DNA from: Microbulbifer bruguierae
GTDB taxonomy: Bacteria > Pseudomonadota > Gammaproteobacteria > Pseudomonadales > Cellvibrionaceae
Reading direction: 5' to 3'
Assembly (NCBI RefSeq): GCF_029869925.1
Contig: NZ_CP118605.1
Coordinates: forward strand, 3,996,001-4,060,000
Length of the DNA: 64,000 nucleotides
The first letter of the stretch is position 1; the number at the start of each line of letters is the position of its first letter. Of this stretch, positions 54,828-64,000 are shown in pieces. The position numbers were made by a program, and so were the translations under genes. Below the pieces are notes generated by a model. The model was not told where the DNA came from, ran no database searches, and saw only the letters and a program-made list of their open reading frames with translations.

Positions 54828-56309
54828 TCACTCCCCAAACTTCCTCTGAGGTGCCACATCGTGGTCGGCAGTAATGCCGAATTCTTTTTTGGTCGTGTCT
54901 TTCACAACGGTGTGGTCTTCCTCGGCGCCGTGCATCCAATCGACCAGTTTCTCGCGGATAAAGAACAGAATAATACCGGCAATAATCGCTGCTGCAGCAA
55001 CACCGCCAAAGGTCGCCAGTGGACCCGACTCGCCAACCAGCTTACCGATTTCCGCAGCGCCTTTGTTGGCAATACCGATAAACGCAAACCACAGGCCCAT
55101 CATCAGCGACAGGTAACGCAGGGGCGAGAGCTTGGTCACCATCGACAGGCCGATGGGCGACAGGCACAACTCACCTATGGTGTGGAATATGTACGCCACC
55201 ACCAACCACCAGGGGCTCGCCTTGGCCGTTTCGGAATCGCCAATCTGCAGCGCCGCGCCCACCATGGAAATAAAACCCAGCCCGAGGAAAATCAGCCCCA
55301 GGCTGAACTTGGCCGGTGAGGTCGGCTCGTGGGAGCCCAGTCCGACCCAGATACTCGCCACGATCGGTGCCAGGATGATGATAAACAGCGGGTTGACCAT
55401 CTGCAGCCAGCTGGCGGGAATCTCAAAACCGAAAATATGCAGGTCGGTGTTGTACTTGGCGAACAGGTTCATGGAGCCCGCTGCCTGTTCAAATCCCGCC
55501 CAGAAAATGACGGTAAACAGGCCCAAAACCAGGATCACCTTGATACGGTCGCGCTCTTCCAGCGTGAGTGGGCGCTTTTTGTCCTGGTTGCTCAGATTTG
55601 GCGTCAGCCCGAGTTTTGCCGAAGGCTGGTTGCCGATTTCACCGAGGAATTTATCCGCCTGGGTCAGCTGTAGAATCAGCCCCAGCAGCATGCCGAGACC
55701 GGCCACCACAAACGCCAGTTGGTAGTCGACTTTCTCACCGATCCAGCCGATTACCAGATAGCCGAGAATCGATCCCAGGTTGATCCCCATATAGAAAATC
55801 GTAAACGCCGTATCCCGGCGTTTGTCGCCTTCCTCGTAGAGGTCACCGACCATGGTGGAGATATTGGGTTTGAAAAAACCGTTGCCGATAATCATCAGCG
55901 CCAGCCCCAGCCACAACATGTAGATTTCGGTACCATCTGGCAGCCACTTGTGTGGAAAACCAAGGGCGAATTGCCCAAGCATCATCAGCACACCACCGAA
56001 CATGATGCAGCGACGCTGCCCCCACTTGTTGTCCGCCATCCAGCCGCCGATGATTGGGGTCAGGTACACCAGCATTGCGTACCAGCCGAGATAGCTCAGC
56101 GCCTTGGATTGCAGTTCAGTGTCGGAGAGTGCCTCCCAGCCAAATACCGCCGCACTGGCGGCCGAGGTGAGGTAAAACACAAAGATGCCGCGCATACCGT
56201 AGTAGCTGAGGCGCTCCCACATCTCGGTTCCAAACAGCAGGAACAACCCCTTCGGGTGGCCCATCATTTCCCCAGCGGTGGCCGGGGGTTTTGGCTTGAG
56301 ATCTTGCAT
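54828..56309 (-). CDS. Proton-dependent oligopeptide transporter (POT/PTR family MFS), copy 2
   Basis: This 493-residue di/tripeptide-proton symporter has ~14 membrane helices. The signature GHPKGLFLLFGTEMWERLSYYGMRG is near residue 15, FTIFYMGINLGSILGYLVIG is near 140, and GELCLSPIGLSMVTKLSP is near 390. ATG 56309 (MQDLKPKPP) is selected because AAAGGAG lies ~6 bases upstream; upstream in-frame ATGs would prepend 76 residues that are basic and non-family. It is longer in the centre than the copy at 23602. It converges with the VWA gene across a repeat element and is divergent from hrpA. Confidence 0.92.
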   Translation of the reverse strand: MQDLKPKPPATAGEMMGHPKGLFLLFGTEMWERLSYYGMRGIFVFYLTSAASAAVFGWEALSDTELQSKALSYLGWYAMLVYLTPIIGGWMADNKWGQRRCIMFGGVLMMLGQFALGFPHKWLPDGTEIYMLWLGLALMIIGNGFFKPNISTMVGDLYEEGDKRRDTAFTIFYMGINLGSILGYLVIGWIGEKVDYQLAFVVAGLGMLLGLILQLTQADKFLGEIGNQPSAKLGLTPNLSNQDKKRPLTLEERDRIKVILVLGLFTVIFWAGFEQAAGSMNLFAKYNTDLHIFGFEIPASWLQMVNPLFIIILAPIVASIWVGLGSHEPTSPAKFSLGLIFLGLGFISMVGAALQIGDSETAKASPWWLVVAYIFHTIGELCLSPIGLSMVTKLSPLRYLSLMMGLWFAFIGIANKGAAEIGKLVGESGPLATFGGVAAAAIIAGIILFFIREKLVDWMHGAEEDHTVVKDTTKKEFGITADHDVAPQRKFGE

Positions 56310-56539
56310 GGATGCTCCTTTAAGAGTCCTCACGCTGGTGAAACCAGACCGCTGGACGGGCCTGAGGTGCTGGCGTTGGAAAATTGTCGCGCGCAAATAC
56401 CACATTGATGGGTTGTAATGCGCGTCACTGACCTGAGTATAGGTCAGGCGTAACGCCCGCAAGTGTAGGGACAGACCCCGGTGGTCCCCAGCAGGTATAA
56501 TCGCTGGTTTGCAGTATTTTCCCGGATTGCCAGTCACTT

Positions 56540-59500
56540 ATGAGTCAAGACTCCGCCCGCCCAACCCCACCGCAAGCACTGCAGCAGCTGCAGCAACGTG
56601 TCTCCCTGTGCATGGGGCGAGACCGCTTTCGCCTGCAGCGCACCCTGAGCAATGCCCGCCGGCGACTGCAAGAAGGCAAGCCGGCGGACCGAATGCTGGA
56701 GCAATTGGAAGCACAGATCACGGCTTCGCAGGCACTGGCAGAAGCGCGCCGGAGCAAATTGCCGTGGGTAGAGTGGCCGGAAGAGCTACCGGTGGTGGCG
56801 CGGCGACAGGAGATCGCCGAGCTGATCGCGGCCAACCAGGTGGTGGTGGTCGCCGGTGAAACCGGTTCCGGTAAAACCACGCAGCTGCCGAAAATCTGCC
56901 TGGAACTCGGGCGCGGTATATTCGGCCAGATCGGCCACACCCAGCCGCGCCGAATCGCCGCGCGCACGGTGGCCAACCGCATTGCCGAAGAATTGGGGCA
57001 GCCGCTGGGGGACTCGGTGGGTTACCAGGTGCGGTTTACCGATCAGAGCACCGAGCACACCCACGTAAAATTGATGACCGACGGTATTCTGCTGGCGGAA
57101 ATCCAGCGGGACCCGCTGCTCAGTCACTACGATACCCTGATCATCGATGAGGCCCACGAGCGCAGCCTCAATATCGACTTCCTGCTGGGTTACCTGAAAA
57201 CCATTCTGCCGAAACGCCCGGATCTGAAGTTGATCATTACTTCGGCCACCATCGATCTGGAGAAATTTTCCCGGCATTTCCACGATGCGCCGATTATCGA
57301 GGTATCGGGCCGCACTTATCCGGTGGAAATCCACTACCGCCCGCCGGCGGACAGTGATGCGGATCTCAACGAGCAGATCATCACAGCGGTAGAAGAGCTG
57401 CTACAGGAGGAAAAATCCTCCCCTCGTCGCGGCGGCGACATCCTGATTTTTATGAGCGGCGAACGGGAAATCCGCGAATGTGCCAAGGCATTGCGGGACG
57501 CGGAGCTGGCGCATATCGACGTCCTTCCCCTCTACGCGCGTTTGAGCCTTGCAGAGCAGAGTCGGGTATTCGCACCACACAAGGGCCGCAGAATCGTACT
57601 CGCCACCAACGTGGCGGAAACCTCGATTACCGTGCCCGGCATCCGCTATGTGATCGACCCTGGGACTGCGCGCATCAGCCGCTACAGCTATCGCAGCAAG
57701 ATTCAGCGGTTGCCGGTGGAGGCCATTTCCCAGGCCAGTGCCAACCAGCGTGCGGGTCGCTGTGGGCGGGTCAGTGCCGGCGTGTGTATCCGCCTGTACG
57801 AGGAAAACGACTTTCTTCAGCGGCCGGAATTTACCGATGCGGAAATCCTGCGCACCAACCTTGCCGCAGTTATTCTCCAGATGCTGCAGTTGCGCATCGG
57901 TGACATCCGCGATTTTCCGTTCGTGGATCCGCCGGATCAGCGTCTGATCAACGACGGTTACAGCCTGTTGCAGGAACTGCAGGCGGTGGATGGCAAAGGC
58001 GGTGTTACCAAGCTTGGGCGCGCGCTGTCACGTCTGCCCCTGGACCCTCGTCTGGGGCGTATGCTGATGGAATCCGGCGCAGCCAATAGCCTGCGCGAAT
58101 TACTGATTATTGTCAGTGCGCTGGCGGTGCAGGACCCCCGCGAGCGACCCGCGGAAAAACGCCAGGCGTCTGATGAAAAGCACAAACAGTGGTTGCATGA
58201 GCAATCGGATTTTCTGACCCTGGTGAACCTGTGGGATGGCTATGAGGCACAGCGCCAGGAACTGAGCCAGAACCAGTTGCGTAAATGGTGCCAGAAAAAC
58301 TTTCTGTCCTGGCTACGCCTGCGGGAATGGCGAGACATCCACCACCAGCTGCGTGTGGCCATTCGCGATCTGGACCTGAAAATGAATCGCGAGCCCGCGG
58401 ATTACGCCAGTGTGCACAGGGCGATTTTGCCGGGTCTCTTGGGCAATATCGGTGTGCGGGATGAAAACAAGGAATTTGTCGGTTGCCGCAATCGCCGCTT
58501 TCACATTTTCCCCGCGTCCGGTCAGTTCAAAAAGCCACCACCCTGGGTTGTTGCCGCGCAGCTGCTGGAAACCAGCCGCCTGTTCGCCCACACGGTGGCA
58601 AAAATCGAACCCGAGTGGGTGCTGGCATGCTCTGAGCACCTGGTCAAACGCAATTATTTCGAGCCCCACTACAATCCGCGCTCCGGTGCGGTAATGGCGT
58701 TTGAAAAAGTCACGCTCTACGGGCTGGTGCTGGTCGACAAGCAGCGGATCCACTACGGCAAGCTGGATCCGGTGGTGGCGAGGGAAGTCTTTATCCGCGA
58801 GGCTCTGGTTGAGCGCCGCTACCGTGGCAAAGGGAAATTTTTCCGGCACTACGGTGATCTGCTGGCAGAGCTTGAAGATCTGGAAGCCAAGTCCCGCCGC
58901 CGGGATATCGTGGTGGACGACGAGGTGGTGTTTCGCTTTTTCGATGAGCGTATTCCCGAGGATATCGTCAACCTCGCCGGATTTGAAAAATGGCGCAAGC
59001 AGGCGGAGCAGCAAGATCCACAATTGCTGTTGATCCCCCGCGAACTGATGATGCAGCAGGACGCCGGCCATGTGGGTGAGGCGCAATTCCCGGACTCCCT
59101 GATCAGCGGAGGTATCGAATATCCGCTCAGTTATCACTTCGAGCCAGGCACCCCGGAAGATGGGGTAAGTATCCAGGTACCAGTCGGAGCCCTGCACCAG
59201 GTTCCTGCAGCGCGCCTACAGTGGGTAGTGCCGGGCATTCTGCGGGACAAGTGCATCGCGCTGATCAAAAACCTGCCGAAACAGCATCGCAAACATTTTG
59301 TGCCGGTTCCGGCGGCGGTGGACAAGGCGTTGCCGCGTATGCAGGCCGATAACACTCCGTTGTGGCAGGCATTGGCCTATGAACTGAAGCGTCAGACCGC
59401 GATCACATTGCCTGATGCGGACTGGGAAGCCGCGGAGCAGGGCGTGGAAGACTTTTATCGCTTCAATATCCAGGTGCTGGATGAAAAGGGCAAACTGCTG

Positions 59501-60454
59501 GACCAGGGGCGGAACCTCGCCGCGCTACAAGCGCGCTACCGCGATCGCGTTCAGCAGGAGCTGGCCAGTGCCGGCGATGACTTCGAGCGTGAGGGTATTA
59601 CGAGTTGGGATTTTGGTGATCTCCCGCAAACCCATCAGCTGGATCAGGGTGGCCTCAAGGTGCGGGCCTATCCGGCACTGGTAGCGCAAAAGGACAGTGT
59701 CGATCTCAAGCTCATGGACAATCCCGATGAAGCGCGCCAGCTAACCCGCGCCGGTATCTGTCGCCTCGCCATTTTGCATCTGCCGGAGCCGGTAAAGTAC
59801 CTGCGCAAGGAGCTGCTTAAGGGCAAGGAGCTGGGATTGAGTGCGGCAGATCTCGGGCGCCGGGAAGAGGTGGCGGACGATATTCTGATGGCTGCAGTGC
59901 GCGAATGTTTCTGGCCGGATGAAGTCTGGCCGCGCAGCGAAGCTGAATTCCTGAACGCGTTGCAACAACGGGAAAAACTGGTGGGCGTTGCCCAGGAAAT
60001 TGGTGAGGTGTTGGTAAAAGTACTCGCACAACTGGTGCCCCTGCGCAAACTGATAAAACAGCAAAAAAATCTGGCGGTGGCCATGGCGGTGGCGGATATT
60101 AATCGCCAGCTGCAGGGACTCTTCTATCGCGGCTTTCTGTTTCAAACCCCGCTGGAATGGTTGCGGCAGTATGGCCGTTACCTGAAGGGGATAGAGCTGC
60201 GGCTGGAAAAGGCGGCGCTGGACCCGAATCGTGATCGCAAGCTTAGCGCCGAATTTCAGCAGGCTGACGAGCCCTATCAGGCAGAAGCGAGCAAGCGCGA
60301 ACCGCTGTTGCTGGCGGGGGATCCCGAGCTGCTGCAGTATCGCTGGATGCTGGAGGAATTTCGGGTATCGCTATTCGCGCAAACCCTGAAAACCCTGATG
60401 CCGGTTTCCATCAAGCGGCTGCGTAAGTTCTGGTCCGATATTGCTGCCAGTTGA
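56540..60454 (+). CDS. hrpA: ATP-dependent RNA helicase HrpA
   Basis: HrpA is a 1304-residue DEAH-box helicase, almost exactly the E. coli length, implicated in mRNA processing and rescue of stalled ribosomes. The order is a short N-terminal helical extension, then RecA-1 with GETGSGKTTQLPK near 106 and IIDEAHERS near 203. SATIDLEKFS is motif III. RecA-2 has VLATNVAETSITVPGIRYVIDPG and QRAGRCGR. HA2/OB-type domains follow to ~760, then the large HrpA-specific C-terminal region (DUF3418) to the end. No strong Shine-Dalgarno is seen. It is single-gene and followed by a 311-base gap. Confidence 0.95.
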   Translation: MSQDSARPTPPQALQQLQQRVSLCMGRDRFRLQRTLSNARRRLQEGKPADRMLEQLEAQITASQALAEARRSKLPWVEWPEELPVVARRQEIAELIAANQVVVVAGETGSGKTTQLPKICLELGRGIFGQIGHTQPRRIAARTVANRIAEELGQPLGDSVGYQVRFTDQSTEHTHVKLMTDGILLAEIQRDPLLSHYDTLIIDEAHERSLNIDFLLGYLKTILPKRPDLKLIITSATIDLEKFSRHFHDAPIIEVSGRTYPVEIHYRPPADSDADLNEQIITAVEELLQEEKSSPRRGGDILIFMSGEREIRECAKALRDAELAHIDVLPLYARLSLAEQSRVFAPHKGRRIVLATNVAETSITVPGIRYVIDPGTARISRYSYRSKIQRLPVEAISQASANQRAGRCGRVSAGVCIRLYEENDFLQRPEFTDAEILRTNLAAVILQMLQLRIGDIRDFPFVDPPDQRLINDGYSLLQELQAVDGKGGVTKLGRALSRLPLDPRLGRMLMESGAANSLRELLIIVSALAVQDPRERPAEKRQASDEKHKQWLHEQSDFLTLVNLWDGYEAQRQELSQNQLRKWCQKNFLSWLRLREWRDIHHQLRVAIRDLDLKMNREPADYASVHRAILPGLLGNIGVRDENKEFVGCRNRRFHIFPASGQFKKPPPWVVAAQLLETSRLFAHTVAKIEPEWVLACSEHLVKRNYFEPHYNPRSGAVMAFEKVTLYGLVLVDKQRIHYGKLDPVVAREVFIREALVERRYRGKGKFFRHYGDLLAELEDLEAKSRRRDIVVDDEVVFRFFDERIPEDIVNLAGFEKWRKQAEQQDPQLLLIPRELMMQQDAGHVGEAQFPDSLISGGIEYPLSYHFEPGTPEDGVSIQVPVGALHQVPAARLQWVVPGILRDKCIALIKNLPKQHRKHFVPVPAAVDKALPRMQADNTPLWQALAYELKRQTAITLPDADWEAAEQGVEDFYRFNIQVLDEKGKLLDQGRNLAALQARYRDRVQQELASAGDDFEREGITSWDFGDLPQTHQLDQGGLKVRAYPALVAQKDSVDLKLMDNPDEARQLTRAGICRLAILHLPEPVKYLRKELLKGKELGLSAADLGRREEVADDILMAAVRECFWPDEVWPRSEAEFLNALQQREKLVGVAQEIGEVLVKVLAQLVPLRKLIKQQKNLAVAMAVADINRQLQGLFYRGFLFQTPLEWLRQYGRYLKGIELRLEKAALDPNRDRKLSAEFQQADEPYQAEASKREPLLLAGDPELLQYRWMLEEFRVSLFAQTLKTLMPVSIKRLRKFWSDIAAS

Positions 60455-60594
60455 ATTGGAGCGGGGACACCATACACCCTGAAGCGCCAGCGCTGTCATG
60501 GCTGTCTTGGGCGCGCTGTGTAATTGTCCGCTAATAATTCTCTCGCCAGTGTAAGAAATGCGTGCATGGGACGACCAATCTATGGAGTATGGTA

Positions 60595-60613
60595 CTGTGA
60601 ACTGGGTTCACAG
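60595..60613. promoter_or_regulatory. CTGTGAAC-TGG-GTTCACAG inverted repeat upstream of the MNIO RiPP locus
   Basis: Perfect 8-base arms around 3 bases lie ~50 bases upstream of the putative -35 box at 60661. There is no T-run on either strand, so an operator is more likely than a terminator for hrpA. The rest of the 60455-60765 gap holds only the promoter and leader described below. Confidence 0.45.
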
Positions 60614-60660
60614 AATGCCAGGCCTCGTAGAATAGGGCGCCGGTAGCGTTGGTCTGACTG

Positions 60661-60691
60661 TTGAACCAATTCCTTGCCGGCAGCCTATAAT
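60661..60691 (+). promoter_or_regulatory. Putative promoter of the HvfA-like gene
   Basis: TTGAAC (60661-60666) and a perfect TATAAT (60686-60691) are separated by 19 bases, slightly long for sigma70. The precursor gene starts ~75 bases later with AGGAG 7 bases before its ATG. Confidence 0.5.
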
Positions 60692-60765
60692 CCGGGGGCG
60701 GCGGTTTTCGCGCCGTGTCCGCGAGTAGTCCAAACATCCCATGACGTCTTAACAGGAGAACTGCC

Positions 60766-61074
60766 ATGAACAAGAAGAATCTGCCCCTTGCGGCGGCCGT
60801 AGGCGCTGCCTTTATTGCTTCTGCCACCCTGAGTGTATCCACCGCGGCCAACCCCTTTAGTGCCACCGAACTGTCCGCCGGCTACAACCTGAAAATGGCG
60901 GATGACGACAAGAAGAAAGAAGGCAAGTGCGGCGAAGACAAGCAAAAAGAGGGTAAGTGCGGCGAGGGCAAGGAAAAAGAGGGCAAGTGCGGAGAGGGTA
61001 AGAAGAAAGAAGGTAAGTGCGGAGAAGACAAAAAGAAAGAAGGCAAATGTGGTGAGGGCAAGTGCGGCACCTGA
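60766..61074 (+). CDS. HvfA/bufferin-type RiPP precursor with six EGKCG units
   Basis: The 102-residue precursor has a signal peptide at ~1-28 (NLPLAAAVGAAFIASATLSV...TAA), a short spacer (NPFSATELSAGYNLKM), and then a Lys/Glu/Gly/Cys-only tail. Five EGKCGE(D/G)K(x)K decapeptide units and a final EGKCGT put cysteines at 55, 65, 75, 85, 95 and 100. In the Haemophilus HvfA family, EGKCG cysteines are converted by an MNIO enzyme into oxazolone/thioamide groups that bind copper; related bufferins buffer metals in the periplasm (established knowledge, recent literature). Adjacent genes encode the MNIO enzyme and its partner, so the assignment is strong. It is separated from them by a terminator-like hairpin. 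Confidence 0.9.
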   Translation: MNKKNLPLAAAVGAAFIASATLSVSTAANPFSATELSAGYNLKMADDDKKKEGKCGEDKQKEGKCGEGKEKEGKCGEGKKKEGKCGEDKKKEGKCGEGKCGT

Positions 61075-61092
61075 TTGCAGACTGAACCTCTG

Positions 61093-61146
61093 CTGTTGTA
61101 ACGGTTCGGCAACCAGCCGGATCGTTGCAACGGGTATTTTTTCTTT
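61093..61146 (+). terminator. 18-bp-stem terminator/attenuator between precursor and maturation genes
   Basis: CTGTTGTAACGGTTCGGC (61093-61110) pairs over all 18 positions, four as G-U, with GCCGGATCGTTGCAACGG (61116-61133), around an AACCA loop. It is followed by GTA and TTTTTTCTTTT. It begins 18 bases after the precursor stop and ends just before the hvfB-type start. A leaky terminator here would make precursor in large excess over enzymes. Confidence 0.85.
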
Positions 61147-61161
61147 TCAACAAGAACTGTC

Positions 61162-62058
61162 GTGAAGATGCAAACGCACAAGCAGCCATTTCCGGTTCAT
61201 GGCGCGGGCCTTGGGCTGCGGCGATCCATGATTGGGGAGACCATTACACCGCATCAGGTGGACTTTCTTGAAGTGGCACCGGAAAACTGGATTGGTGTTG
61301 GTGGCCGCTTTGGTCGCTGGTTGCGCGAGTACACCGAGCGCTTTCCATTTGTAACCCACGGGCTGTCATTGTCCATCGGAGCCCCGGCTCCCCTGGATGA
61401 AACACTGGTTCGTTCCGTCAAACAGTTCATCCGCGATCACAATATCCACTGCTATAGTGAGCACCTGAGTTATTGTTCGGATCACGGTCATCTCTACGAC
61501 CTGTTACCCATCCCATTTACAGAAGAGGCGGTGCATTATGTGGCTGCGCGAATTCGCCGTGTCCAGGACATACTCGAGCAGCGCATCGCCATGGAAAACG
61601 TCTCCTACTATGCTGCTCCCGGGCAGGAAATGAGTGAGCTGGCGTTTCTGCTGGCGGTACTGGAGGAGGCGGATTGTGACCTGTTGCTGGATGTGAACAA
61701 TATCTACGTCAACGCCATCAACCATCGTTATGACCCTTTGCTCTTCCTGCAAAGCCTGCCCGCACACCGTATCCGCTACGCCCATGTGGCAGGGCATTTT
61801 GACGAAGCCGACGACCTGAAAATCGACACGCATGGTGCGCCAGTAATTGATCCGGTGTGGCAGTTGTTGCAGCAGGCTTACGACTGTTTCGGCCCTATCC
61901 CCACCCTGCTGGAACGAGACTTCAATATTCCGCCATTACCGGAGTTGTTCGGGGAAGTGGCCCGTATTCGCGACTATCAGTTGCAGGCAACTGCTGTGCA
62001 AAATACGCCACCGGAGTCCGGACGAGTGGCGGGCGTGGAGGCACTCCATGACCGTTAA
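61162..62058 (+). CDS. MNIO (DUF692) RiPP maturase, HvfB/BufB type
   Basis: This 298-residue TIM-barrel enzyme belongs to the multinuclear non-heme iron oxidase family, whose members modify cysteines in RiPP precursors. Candidate metal ligands are His66 (THGLSLS), Glu100-His101 (SEHLSY), Glu145 (MENVSYY), Asp177/Asn179-180 (DVNN), His188, His208/His212 (HVAGH), Asp222-His224 (DTHG) and Glu251 (LERD). The N terminus [10 protein letters not shown] is also family-typical. The start is GTG 61162 or ATG 61168; neither has a strong Shine-Dalgarno. It follows the precursor across a terminator and overlaps the next gene by 11 bases. Confidence 0.93.
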
Positions 62059-62887
62059 GGTGGCGCCGGACAATGGAGATGCGAACGTTGACAGGGACAG
62101 TGATCGGGAAGGTGCTTTCTTGCGAGTACAAAATGAGTTCGCGGCGCATTTGCGCAACCCGGAGCAGGTGGTGGCGCCCGCGGATGTCGAAGACCGACGC
62201 CTCGGCATTTATCGCGACCTGATCTATAACAATATTGAGTCCTTTATTGCCAGTGGCTTTCCGGTACTGCGCAGTATCTATTCTGACGACCGTTGGCACG
62301 AAATGGTGCGGGATTTTGTCGCCCGTCATGCCTCGCAAAGTCCTTACTTCTTACAGATCAGTGAAGAATTTCTGCACTACCTGCAAAATGAGCGCAGCAC
62401 CGCAGAGGGCAGTACACAGGATCCGCCATTTCTGCTGGAACTGGCGCACTATGAGTGGGTAGAGCTGGTGCTGGACGTCAGCGATGACGAAATTCCCGGA
62501 GAAATGGTGCGGGAATACTTGGATGAACAGCTGTTGGATTGGGTGCCTGTCATGTCCCCGCTGGCCTGGAATCTCACCTATCAGTTTCCCGTACATCGCC
62601 TCGGCCCGACGTATCAGCCCGACGATCTGCCGCAAACACCGACGTTTCTGGTTGTCTACCGGAACCGTGCAGATACAGTCGGCTTCCTCGAGGCAAATGC
62701 GGTCACGTCACATCTGTTGCAGCTGATTGAATCCGCTGGTGACGGGCCTCAATCTGGCCGTCAGCTATTGCTGCAACTGGCGGCCGATATCCAGCATCCG
62801 GCTCCCGAGCAACTGCTGGACTTTGGTGTGGAACTGTTGAGGAAGCTGCTCAGCCTGCATATTCTCGCCGGCTATCGGCCTCGCTGA
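62048..62887 (+). CDS. DUF2063-type MNIO partner protein, HvfC/BufC type
   Basis: The 279-residue protein has the DUF2063 N-terminal domain (~20-120): [45 protein letters not shown], and [16 protein letters not shown] second domain in HvfC-like proteins follows ([18 protein letters not shown]), ending in [17 protein letters not shown]. Such partners recognise the precursor and present it to the MNIO enzyme. ATG 62048 has GGAGG 6 bases upstream inside the enzyme gene, so the two are tightly coupled. No DoxX-like gene follows, unlike several related loci; the next gene is mlaA. Confidence 0.92.
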
Positions 62888-63024
62888 GGCCAAAGTGAGA
62901 CACAGGTTGGTTGTCGGCTGATAGCTGGCTCCCGTTTGCTCCCTGTATCTGATCCGCAAGCACTACCGCGTCGATCAATCCCATTAGCCAAAACGGCCAG
63001 CTGCTATGCTGGCTTAGCGGCCAG

Positions 63025-63033
63025 TGTTAGAAT
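63025..63033 (+). promoter_or_regulatory. Extended -10 promoter element before mlaA
   Basis: TGTTAGAAT fits the extended -10 consensus TGnTAnAAT and lies ~66 bases upstream of the mlaA start. No terminator after the hvfC-type gene was found in the 62888-63098 gap, so partial read-through is also possible. Confidence 0.5.
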
Positions 63034-63098
63034 CGCGCGCAAACAGAAACTAAGACATTGGTTTGAAACTGAGAACTGACAACGCAAGGAGCAGGGAA

Positions 63099-64000
63099 TT
63101 GCTTGAGCGTACCCCCATAATCGCCTTGGCCCTGACAGCACTGCTGTCGGCGCCCATGGCGCTGGCGCAGGAAGCGTCTGATTCTTCCGATCCCTTCGCG
63201 GAATCCCCCAGTGAAACGCCGGTAGAGCCTGTATCAGGATCTCCCGTGTCCGGGGAGGACACTGAGAGCAGCGGTAGCGATTCCTCTGGTTCTGACCCGT
63301 TTGGCTCTGATCCATTTTCTAGTGGTGAGGGCGAAGGCACCGGTAACGGTGCAGCCGATGATTTCGGCTCGGAACTGCAGGATGAGTACGGCTTCGACCC
63401 CGCGGGTGCATTCGCCAGCGAAGAAGAACCGCAAGACCGCGACCCCTGGGAAGGCTTCAACCGGGCCATGTTCCGTTTCAATGACACCGCCGACCGCTGG
63501 TTTCTGAAGCCGGCGGCGACCAGTTACCGCCAGATCACCCCGATTTTTGTCCAGACCGGAGTGACCAACTTCTTTTCCAACCTGCACGAAATCAACAATG
63601 TCCTCAACGACATTCTGCAGTGGAAGTGGGGGCAGGCGGGTAATGACACCGGCCGCTTCCTGCTCAACAGTACCGTAGGCCTGGTGGGGCTGTTTGATGT
63701 GGCACAGCATATGGGCCTGGAACCCAGTGACGGTGAGGACTTTGGCCAGACGCTGGCGGTCTGGGGGGCGCCTTCAGGCCCCTACCTGGTGATACCCTTC
63801 ATGGGCCCATCTACGGTGCGCGATGTGCCCGGAGAAGTGCTGGAGTGGTACACCAACCCGCTTACTTATGTCGATGACAACTCCGTGGAATACACGCTGA
63901 AAGTCCTGGATCTGTTGCAGACGCGCGCGAGCCTGCTAAAAGCGGAGTCCTTATTGCAGGGGGATCGCTATGTATTGATGCGGGACGCCTATCTGCAACG
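63099..64000 (+). CDS. mlaA: MlaA/VacJ phospholipid-transport outer-membrane protein, 3' end cut by window
   Basis: About 300 residues are visible. MlaA removes mislocalised phospholipids from the outer-membrane outer leaflet and passes them to MlaC. The core starts at ~110 with DPWEGFNRAMFRFND, followed by FFSNLHEINNVLNDILQWKW, DTGRFLLNSTVGLVGLFDVA, DFGQTLAVWGAPSGPYLVIP and the helical CTD. TTG 63099 is the start because AAGGAG is 7 bases upstream and no ATG/GTG opens the signal peptide in this frame. The signal peptide ends MALAQ with no lipobox Cys, unlike lipoprotein MlaA of enterics. A ~85-residue Ser/Asp/Glu/Pro/Gly linker (SSGSDPFGSDPFSSG) precedes the core, which is unusual. Confidence 0.88.
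   Translation, partial: MLERTPIIALALTALLSAPMALAQEASDSSDPFAESPSETPVEPVSGSPVSGEDTESSGSDSSGSDPFGSDPFSSGEGEGTGNGAADDFGSELQDEYGFDPAGAFASEEEPQDRDPWEGFNRAMFRFNDTADRWFLKPAATSYRQITPIFVQTGVTNFFSNLHEINNVLNDILQWKWGQAGNDTGRFLLNSTVGLVGLFDVAQHMGLEPSDGEDFGQTLAVWGAPSGPYLVIPFMGPSTVRDVPGEVLEWYTNPLTYVDDNSVEYTLKVLDLLQTRASLLKAESLLQGDRYVLMRDAYLQ

Follow-up and report, generated by a model that had tools for sequence, protein, structure and literature searches.

An mmrABC-type RiPP operon of Microbulbifer bruguierae with a detached hvfX gene and a candidate ECF-type stress promoter

Introduction

The 64,000-nucleotide stretch of Microbulbifer bruguierae DNA analysed here (NZ_CP118605.1, positions 3,996,001 to 4,060,000), hereafter called the window, carries a small operon in which a precursor gene with EGKCG repeats is followed by genes for an MNIO enzyme and its partner protein. 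The original prediction took this operon for an HvfABC/bufferin-type locus without the DoxX-like fourth gene and, from this, the number of motifs and the decapeptide spacing, for a possible new member with more metal sites. Three questions arise from it: whether the operon is new, where its fourth gene is, and when its peptide is made. The last bears on a point left open in PMC12538549, namely why a conserved copper-binding peptide cluster stays silent even under copper; that clusters of this class answer to oxidative stress and metals generally is already in print.

Results

Operon genes and family assignment

The three genes, mmrA, mmrB and mmrC, are listed in Table 1 together with the other features. 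MmrA begins with a signal peptide, placed by eye at about residues 1-28, and beyond MADDD it consists of K, E, G, C, D, Q and T only, as the original prediction had described. Its cysteines are spaced by 10, 10, 10, 10 and 5 residues, which bears out the predicted six EGKCG motifs with five in a 10-residue period and the sixth closer, and leaves four isolated cysteines and one dyad. The reading frames of mmrB and mmrC, predicted to encode a DUF692 MNIO enzyme and a DUF2063 partner, do overlap by 11 bases, and both assignments were confirmed by Pfam: MmrB scored 350.3 bits against the MNIO model (cut-off 25), and MmrC scored 93.8 bits against DUF2063 (cut-off 27.2) and 102.4 bits against NGO1945_C (cut-off 27).

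When the proteins were compared with known HvfABC and BufABC sets, MmrB was above the cut-off of the HvfB family model NF003818 (437.7 bits, cut-off 360), MmrC above that of the HvfC family model NF050145 (306.8 bits, cut-off 142), and MmrA above that of the NCBIfam KCGExKCG_twice domain model NF050137 (40.6 bits, cut-off 19.5). Since all three models were matched above their cut-offs, the three-gene match is not due to chance. MmrA scored 31.1 bits against the HvfA equivalog NF050188 (cut-off 95), and MmrB stayed below the cut-offs of the bufferin maturase model BufB (NF050167, 266.2 bits, cut-off 310) and of the methanobactin model MbnB (TIGR04159, 34.2 bits, cut-off 325). Among solved structures, MmrB is related by sequence to 3BWW and, more distantly, to 8HCI and 7DZ9; MmrC is related to 3DEE. 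The locus is an HvfABC-type MNIO-modified RiPP operon and belongs to the mmrABC cluster published for Microbulbifer, with which it shares the genus, the mmrA-mmrB-mmrC order and the conserved leader; by homology, its product is predicted to bind copper. We also considered MmrB as a novel enzyme or an outlying MNIO, which its score against the HvfB model ruled out.

Table 1. Features of the mmr locus and of hvfX (window positions unless marked as genome positions)
Feature	Position	Strand	Remarks
ECF-type motif TGTAAG-N16-CGACCA	60550..60577	+	188 nt before mmrA start codon; candidate promoter
TATAAT box, possible second (housekeeping) promoter	60686..60691	+	conserved in alignment
mmrA (hvfA-like), precursor	60766..61074	+	102 aa; six EGKCG motifs; N-terminal signal peptide
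18-pair stem followed by T run, between mmrA and mmrB	61093..61133	+	z -3.4
mmrB, HvfB-family MNIO (DUF692)	61162..62058	+	GTG start as listed; Pfam and NCBIfam matches
mmrC, HvfC-family DUF2063/PME1 partner protein	62048..62887	+	Pfam and NCBIfam matches
hvfX	genome 4167967-4168590		about 110 kb from mmrABC; HvfX model 211.3 bits (cut-off 80)

Distribution in Microbulbifer

The ten best of the best 80 among 579 related loci were all from named Microbulbifer and 75-84% identical. An MNIO orthologue with 74-100% identity was found in 47 of 48 Microbulbifer genomes, and the gene order hrpA-mmrA-mmrB-mmrC-mlaA was conserved in 46 loci, the same genes being split between contigs in a further genome (G018). 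In the 48th genome, G013, only a 34% MNIO paralogue was detected, and hrpA is directly followed by mlaA. Distant extra MNIO genes of 34-43% identity were observed in G007, G013, G014, G017, G019, G023, G033, G035, G036, G038 and G041. According to PMC12538549 the mmr cluster is conserved in all strains studied there; G013 and G036, the latter with a degraded precursor described below, are exceptions to that conservation.

Because of this near-universal presence and conserved order, there is nothing unusual in the three-gene arrangement of our locus or in a motif number that varies, and the suggestion that it might be a new member by its layout was overtaken by the Microbulbifer mmrABC cluster published in 2025 with five to eight cysteines (PMC12538549). 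The operon is a further member of the described family, with a repeat layout at the end of the range.

The cysteine repeat of the precursor

Motif number and decapeptide spacing, which had been proposed as distinguishing this locus, vary genus-wide. Among 46 genus precursors, the number of cysteines ranged from 2 to 10, with 2 in one genome, 4 in two, 6 in 21, 7 in seven, 8 in 14 and 10 in one, and the spacings were mostly 5 (128 cases), 10 (97), 11 (26) and 15 (5), with five others. The core made of paired-cysteine cassettes, as in VAAF005, is not found in our MmrA, which has one dyad only. A single 5-residue spacing occurred in 7 of the 46 precursors; six are from other genomes, so a layout with a single dyad is not exclusive to our locus. 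With one precursor (G025) spaced by 11, 11, 11, 11 and 5 residues, these seven make the decapeptide array one end of a continuum.

The oxazolone/thioamide groups first proposed for the cysteines are outdated, since current reports identify the modified cysteines of HvfA and FonA as 5-thiooxazoles (PMC13419390, PMC12668002, PMC13097082); for MmrA with five to eight cysteines, 4 H are reported lost per cysteine and the thiooxazole assignment is tentative (PMC12538549). The idea of more metal sites found no support, because HvfA (PMC13419390) and VAAF005 MmrA (PMC12538549) are likewise reported with six cysteines.

In one alternative, only the C-terminal EGKCGEGKCG dyad would be modified and the four isolated decapeptide cysteines would stay as thiols or disulfides. 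FonBC is reported to have modified a two-repeat peptide in vitro and not a one-repeat peptide, and at least one 5-residue spacing is retained in 45 of the 46 genus precursors, the exception being G036, both of which agree with such a restriction; nevertheless, we find it doubtful, as MmrA cassettes with either cysteine changed to alanine were reported still to lose 4 H (PMC12538549), and 10- or 11-residue spacings persist across many species. Modification at each EGKCG motif, which we prefer, is taken up in the Discussion.

Several variants of the repeat were observed. EGTCG, EGSCG, EGRCG or EGNCG replaces some EGKCG motifs in the genus precursors of eight loci (L147, L157, L161, L162, L174, L176, L183 and L184), and FonBC is reported to tolerate Thr and Arg at the variable position. 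In locus L027 (2305-2967), an EF-hand-like insert (DADGDGSITKEEF) separates the repeat blocks of an EGKCG precursor. The mmrA homologue of G036 (L173, 1431-1820 in its reading orientation) has lost all but two of its cysteines; with its Met/His-rich repeats (HGEGMQHGEGM), it looks as though copper-binding Met and His residues had taken over from thiooxazole sites; mmrB and mmrC are retained in this genome, and hvfX is gone.

The fourth gene, hvfX

The original prediction noted that the DoxX-like fourth gene was missing. This holds for the operon, as mmrC is followed after 175 bases by mlaA, a gap too short for a DoxX gene and containing none, but not for the genome. Three DoxX genes scored above the Pfam cut-off, and one of them, hvfX, is by far the closest of the three, among the matches listed, to DoxX proteins encoded after DUF2063 genes in other gammaproteobacteria. 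Its neighbours, both named by eye, are a MATE-like gene on one side and a gene for a DEAD-box helicase, here rhlB, on the other. True loss of DoxX is ruled out by the position of this gene and its HvfX score (Table 1).

An HvfX orthologue, 62-100% identical, was found in 45 of 48 genus genomes. The three genomes that lack it are G013, which has no mmrABC, G036, with its degraded precursor, and G014, in which mmr is intact, the precursor has one EGRCG and one EGTCG, and mmrA is without the promoter motif described below. As the MATE-rhlB junction is intact in all three, a contig break there is not the cause of the absence. The chance of finding both mmr-defective genomes in the group of three without hvfX is 3/1128, in a hand calculation that ignores relatedness and counts G036 as degraded, a choice made after the data were seen.

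The same association was observed across the order, in an even draw of 245 genomes with HvfB and HvfX scored by model cut-offs. HvfB was present in 118 and HvfX in 112; 109 genomes had both, 9 HvfB only, 3 HvfX only and 124 neither (Fisher p = 2.5e-54, uncorrected for phylogeny). The two genes lay within 6 kb of each other in 37 of the 109 co-occurrences and were unlinked in 72, of which 9 may be split operons, HvfB lying close to the start of a contig. This co-inheritance, mostly between unlinked genes, argues that HvfX belongs to the pathway. Shared ancestry alone, with HvfX doing another job, is in our view an unlikely explanation. The uncorrected counts would allow it, as would the nine HvfB-only genomes (families f1, f11, f15, f22, f25, f32 and f40), the three HvfX-only genomes (families f27 and f37) and G014, which keeps mmr without HvfX; yet both states are present within families f1, f6, f7, f18, f25, f32, f34, f35, f36, f38 and f43, and in these HvfB and HvfX vary jointly, with a single exceptional genome in each of f1, f25 and f32, and the two are co-absent in G013, as is HvfX in G036 with its degraded precursor. 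What does count against a need for HvfX is that MmrA was reported to be modified in E. coli without DoxX (PMC12538549), and FonA likewise. In one further locus, L067, hvfX sits between mmrC and mlaA, with an hrpA-like end upstream, and this four-gene mmrABC-hvfX set is possibly an older arrangement that predates the move of hvfX.

A candidate ECF-type promoter

The strict motif TGTAAS-N16-CGACYA has three exact matches in the 4.48 Mb genome, located before mmrA, hvfX and msrP, compared with four matches for the reversed control pattern. MsrP and MsrQ were both above their model cut-offs, MsrQ being incomplete at the locus end. In the genus, the sequences upstream of hvfX share TGTAA-N16-CGAC; a loose form with a spacer of 15-18 was present in 23 of 30 such upstreams (from 30 of the 45 genomes with hvfX); none of the 240 control windows taken from these loci contained it. 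The loose motif was also present in 37 of 46 hrpA-mmrA intergenic regions, and thus absent from nine mmrA and seven hvfX upstreams.

A slightly narrower form of the motif gave 55 matches in 31 genus genomes and its reversed control 61. Because 55 does not exceed 61, the total number of sites says nothing, and the case depends on their position. Within 250 nt before mmrA (8), hvfX (18), an ECF sigma-like gene (9) or msrP (3) lie 38 of the 55 sites, of which 20 were placed by tblastn on loci, the nine sigma sites by the translated downstream frame and the remaining nine by coordinates or identical sequence; this placement covered the motif sites and not those of the control pattern. The other 17 sites precede genes for S41 proteases (3), TVP38-like proteins (2, by eye), arsS and a thioredoxin-like protein, and ten are unexplained. 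Among 29 genomes, the motif tended to be present or absent at mmrA and hvfX together (both 21, mmrA only 2, hvfX only 1, neither 5), with a Fisher value of 0.001 that is uncorrected for relatedness, at least three of the five genomes with neither being probably close kin; G018 was skipped. The motif was seen before msrP in three genomes only. Outside the genus, the motif was nearly absent, in 1 of 44 precursor upstreams and 2 of 24 hvfX upstreams, against 2 of 1674 control windows.

Some of the other sites deserve description. In L304, L308 and L309 the strict motif lies about 105 nt before a gene like those for S41 C-terminal processing proteases; we know of no protease for the mmr peptide. 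In L272 and L273 the motif stands before TVP38-like genes (identified by eye), in L272 before an FAD oxidoreductase-like frame, and in L287 it lies before arsS, with a TVP38-like frame next downstream. The TVP38-like and arsS sites hint that the regulon may be broader and respond to metalloids or oxidants.

In nine related genomes the motif precedes an ECF sigma-like gene. Three of the nine were scanned; all were above the TIGR02943 cut-off, and each is followed by a gene for a zf-HC2 protein of 70-79 residues. The 67-residue anti-sigma factor of Haemophilus is likewise of a zinc-binding type. In length, as given in PMC7907618, that protein is close to the zf-HC2 proteins of the genus. In our strain, the parts of the genome searched gave no match to the sigma gene.

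Other elements in the leader and between the genes

Besides the ECF-type motif, a TATA[AC]T box occurs at most 220 nt from mmrA in 43 of 46 genomes; a scan for sigma-70 promoters returned no site that passed its criteria, 1.6 being expected by chance. Between the ECF-type motif and mmrA, at 60595-60613, lies a perfect 8-3-8 inverted repeat, CTGTGAAC-TGG-GTTCACAG, whose half-sites GTTCAC and TGAACC recur in the leaders of relatives, and which is possibly the operator of some regulator.

The stem between mmrA and mmrB (Table 1) is possibly a partial terminator or a 3' stabiliser that would yield excess precursor; terminator-like sites in the region numbered 6, with 2.9 expected. Stems of -15 kcal/mol or below were found in 23 of 46 genus loci by a scan of even lengths without a shuffle control, which missed the stem of Table 1 and found a T run after few of its stems. 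A conserved leader RNA structure was also considered. The alifold consensus was weak, -8.4 and -1.8 kcal/mol for two sets of 15 selected leaders out of 46, and column shuffles near 0 were a poor control; for these reasons we claim no such structure. No Rfam RNA element matched at E up to 1 within 56000-64000.

Discussion

We consider it probable that mmrABC, together with the unlinked hvfX, produces a Cu(I)-binding 5-thiooxazole peptide under an ECF-type stress promoter shared with msrPQ. MmrB and MmrC would turn the cysteine of each EGKCG motif into a 5-thiooxazole, with the signal peptide as leader, after which the modified peptide would be exported and bind Cu(I) in the envelope; HvfX would be the membrane partner required for its working cycle. 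The same ECF-type promoter would drive mmrABC and hvfX as well as msrPQ, the genes for a periplasmic methionine-sulfoxide reductase, through an autoregulated ECF sigma factor and its small zf-HC2 anti-sigma factor, and the signal would be an envelope oxidant (hypochlorite-like) or toxic-metal stress, not copper alone. The stem-loop after mmrA may reduce synthesis of the enzymes relative to the precursor.

We take YedY to belong to the MsrP family. In Caulobacter, sigma-F, with the site GTAACC-N16-CGAA, is reported to control YedY, DUF692/DUF2063 genes and DoxX under dichromate (PMC3511200). In Haemophilus, RpoE2 is reported to control msrAB and a DoxX operon under HOCl stress (PMC7907618), and from its make-up we infer that this operon is hvfABCX. 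On these two parallels, an oxidant or metal-stress sigma factor is the likeliest driver. The motif at mmrA, hvfX and msrP would then mark an envelope-stress regulon. Such a regulon would agree with the published absence of copper induction, MmrA-C being undetected in Microbulbifer with 0.1-0.2 mM copper added (PMC12538549).

That absence also weighs on a plainer explanation, in which the product is a copper-detoxification bufferin, induced through a copper-responsive regulator and merely buffering excess copper, and HvfX and MsrPQ are unrelated. The Mmr product binds Cu(I) and is reported to help E. coli slightly at 2 mM copper (PMC12538549), and bufferins are reported to improve growth under copper stress; all the same, we judge this explanation quite improbable, given the silence under added copper, the ECF-type motif common to mmrA, hvfX and msrP, and the co-inheritance of HvfX. 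A copper-regulator box was looked for by eye only.

A stronger version of the stress-regulon account, which we hold only tentatively, makes HvfX obligate though detached, with the ECF regulon tying mmrABC, hvfX and MsrPQ together and the peptide acting as a redox-active Cu(I)/thiol buffer. The periplasmic peptide would counter envelope oxidants, with HvfX drawing on the quinone pool to keep it reduced. Re-reduction of thiooxazole disulfides by HvfX is speculation, suggested by the use of reduced bulbicupramide in the Cu(I)-binding test (PMC12538549) and by a DoxX-like protein in the thiol redox complex of another bacterium (PMC7907618).

As for the probable account given first, an ECF-type promoter common to mmrA, hvfX and msrPQ offers a testable answer to the silence of mmr, with hypochlorite or chromate as the signal, and the stress-type promoter that hvfX and mmrABC apparently share points to a way of testing when the peptide is made. 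hvfX is the partner gene omitted from E. coli reconstitutions, and an unlinked hvfX would escape cluster mining, though the co-inheritance argues that the uncharacterised DoxX protein is part of the pathway. In full-text searches covering few subscription journals, no title or abstract opening reported that hvfX is unlinked in Microbulbifer or that mmr has an ECF promoter.

Comparison with known systems

The closest system is Microbulbifer mmrABC/bulbicupramide (PMC12538549), whose main text makes no mention of DoxX, HvfX or a promoter. As reported there, it shares with our locus the genus, the three genes, the conserved leader, the EGKCG core and the MNIO and DUF2063 proteins, and likewise has no protease adjoining the genes; VAAF005 MmrA is built of three two-cysteine cassettes, whereas ours has the four isolated cysteines in 10-residue steps and one dyad. 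Haemophilus hvfABCX/oxazolin (PMC13419390) is described with the same signal-peptide precursor, six EGKCG cysteines, HvfB and HvfC, and HvfX in the genome. There, however, hvfX is part of the operon, and HvfA consists of three AEGKCGEGKCG motifs, unlike our MmrA. The captophorins/Buf_EGKCG (PMC13097082, PMC12668002, PMC12452194) share an MNIO, a PME1 protein and an EGKCG repeat precursor; their main type has a 17-residue repeat with two motifs each, and ours a 10-residue unit with one motif. The Caulobacter sigma-F system (PMC3511200) differs in its DUF2282 precursors, in a negative regulator that is a DUF1109 protein, and in a DoxX gene numbered beside the DUF2063 gene rather than detached from it, but it resembles the present case in its GTAA-N16-CGA-type site and in placing DUF692/DUF2063, DoxX and YedY under one ECF sigma factor.
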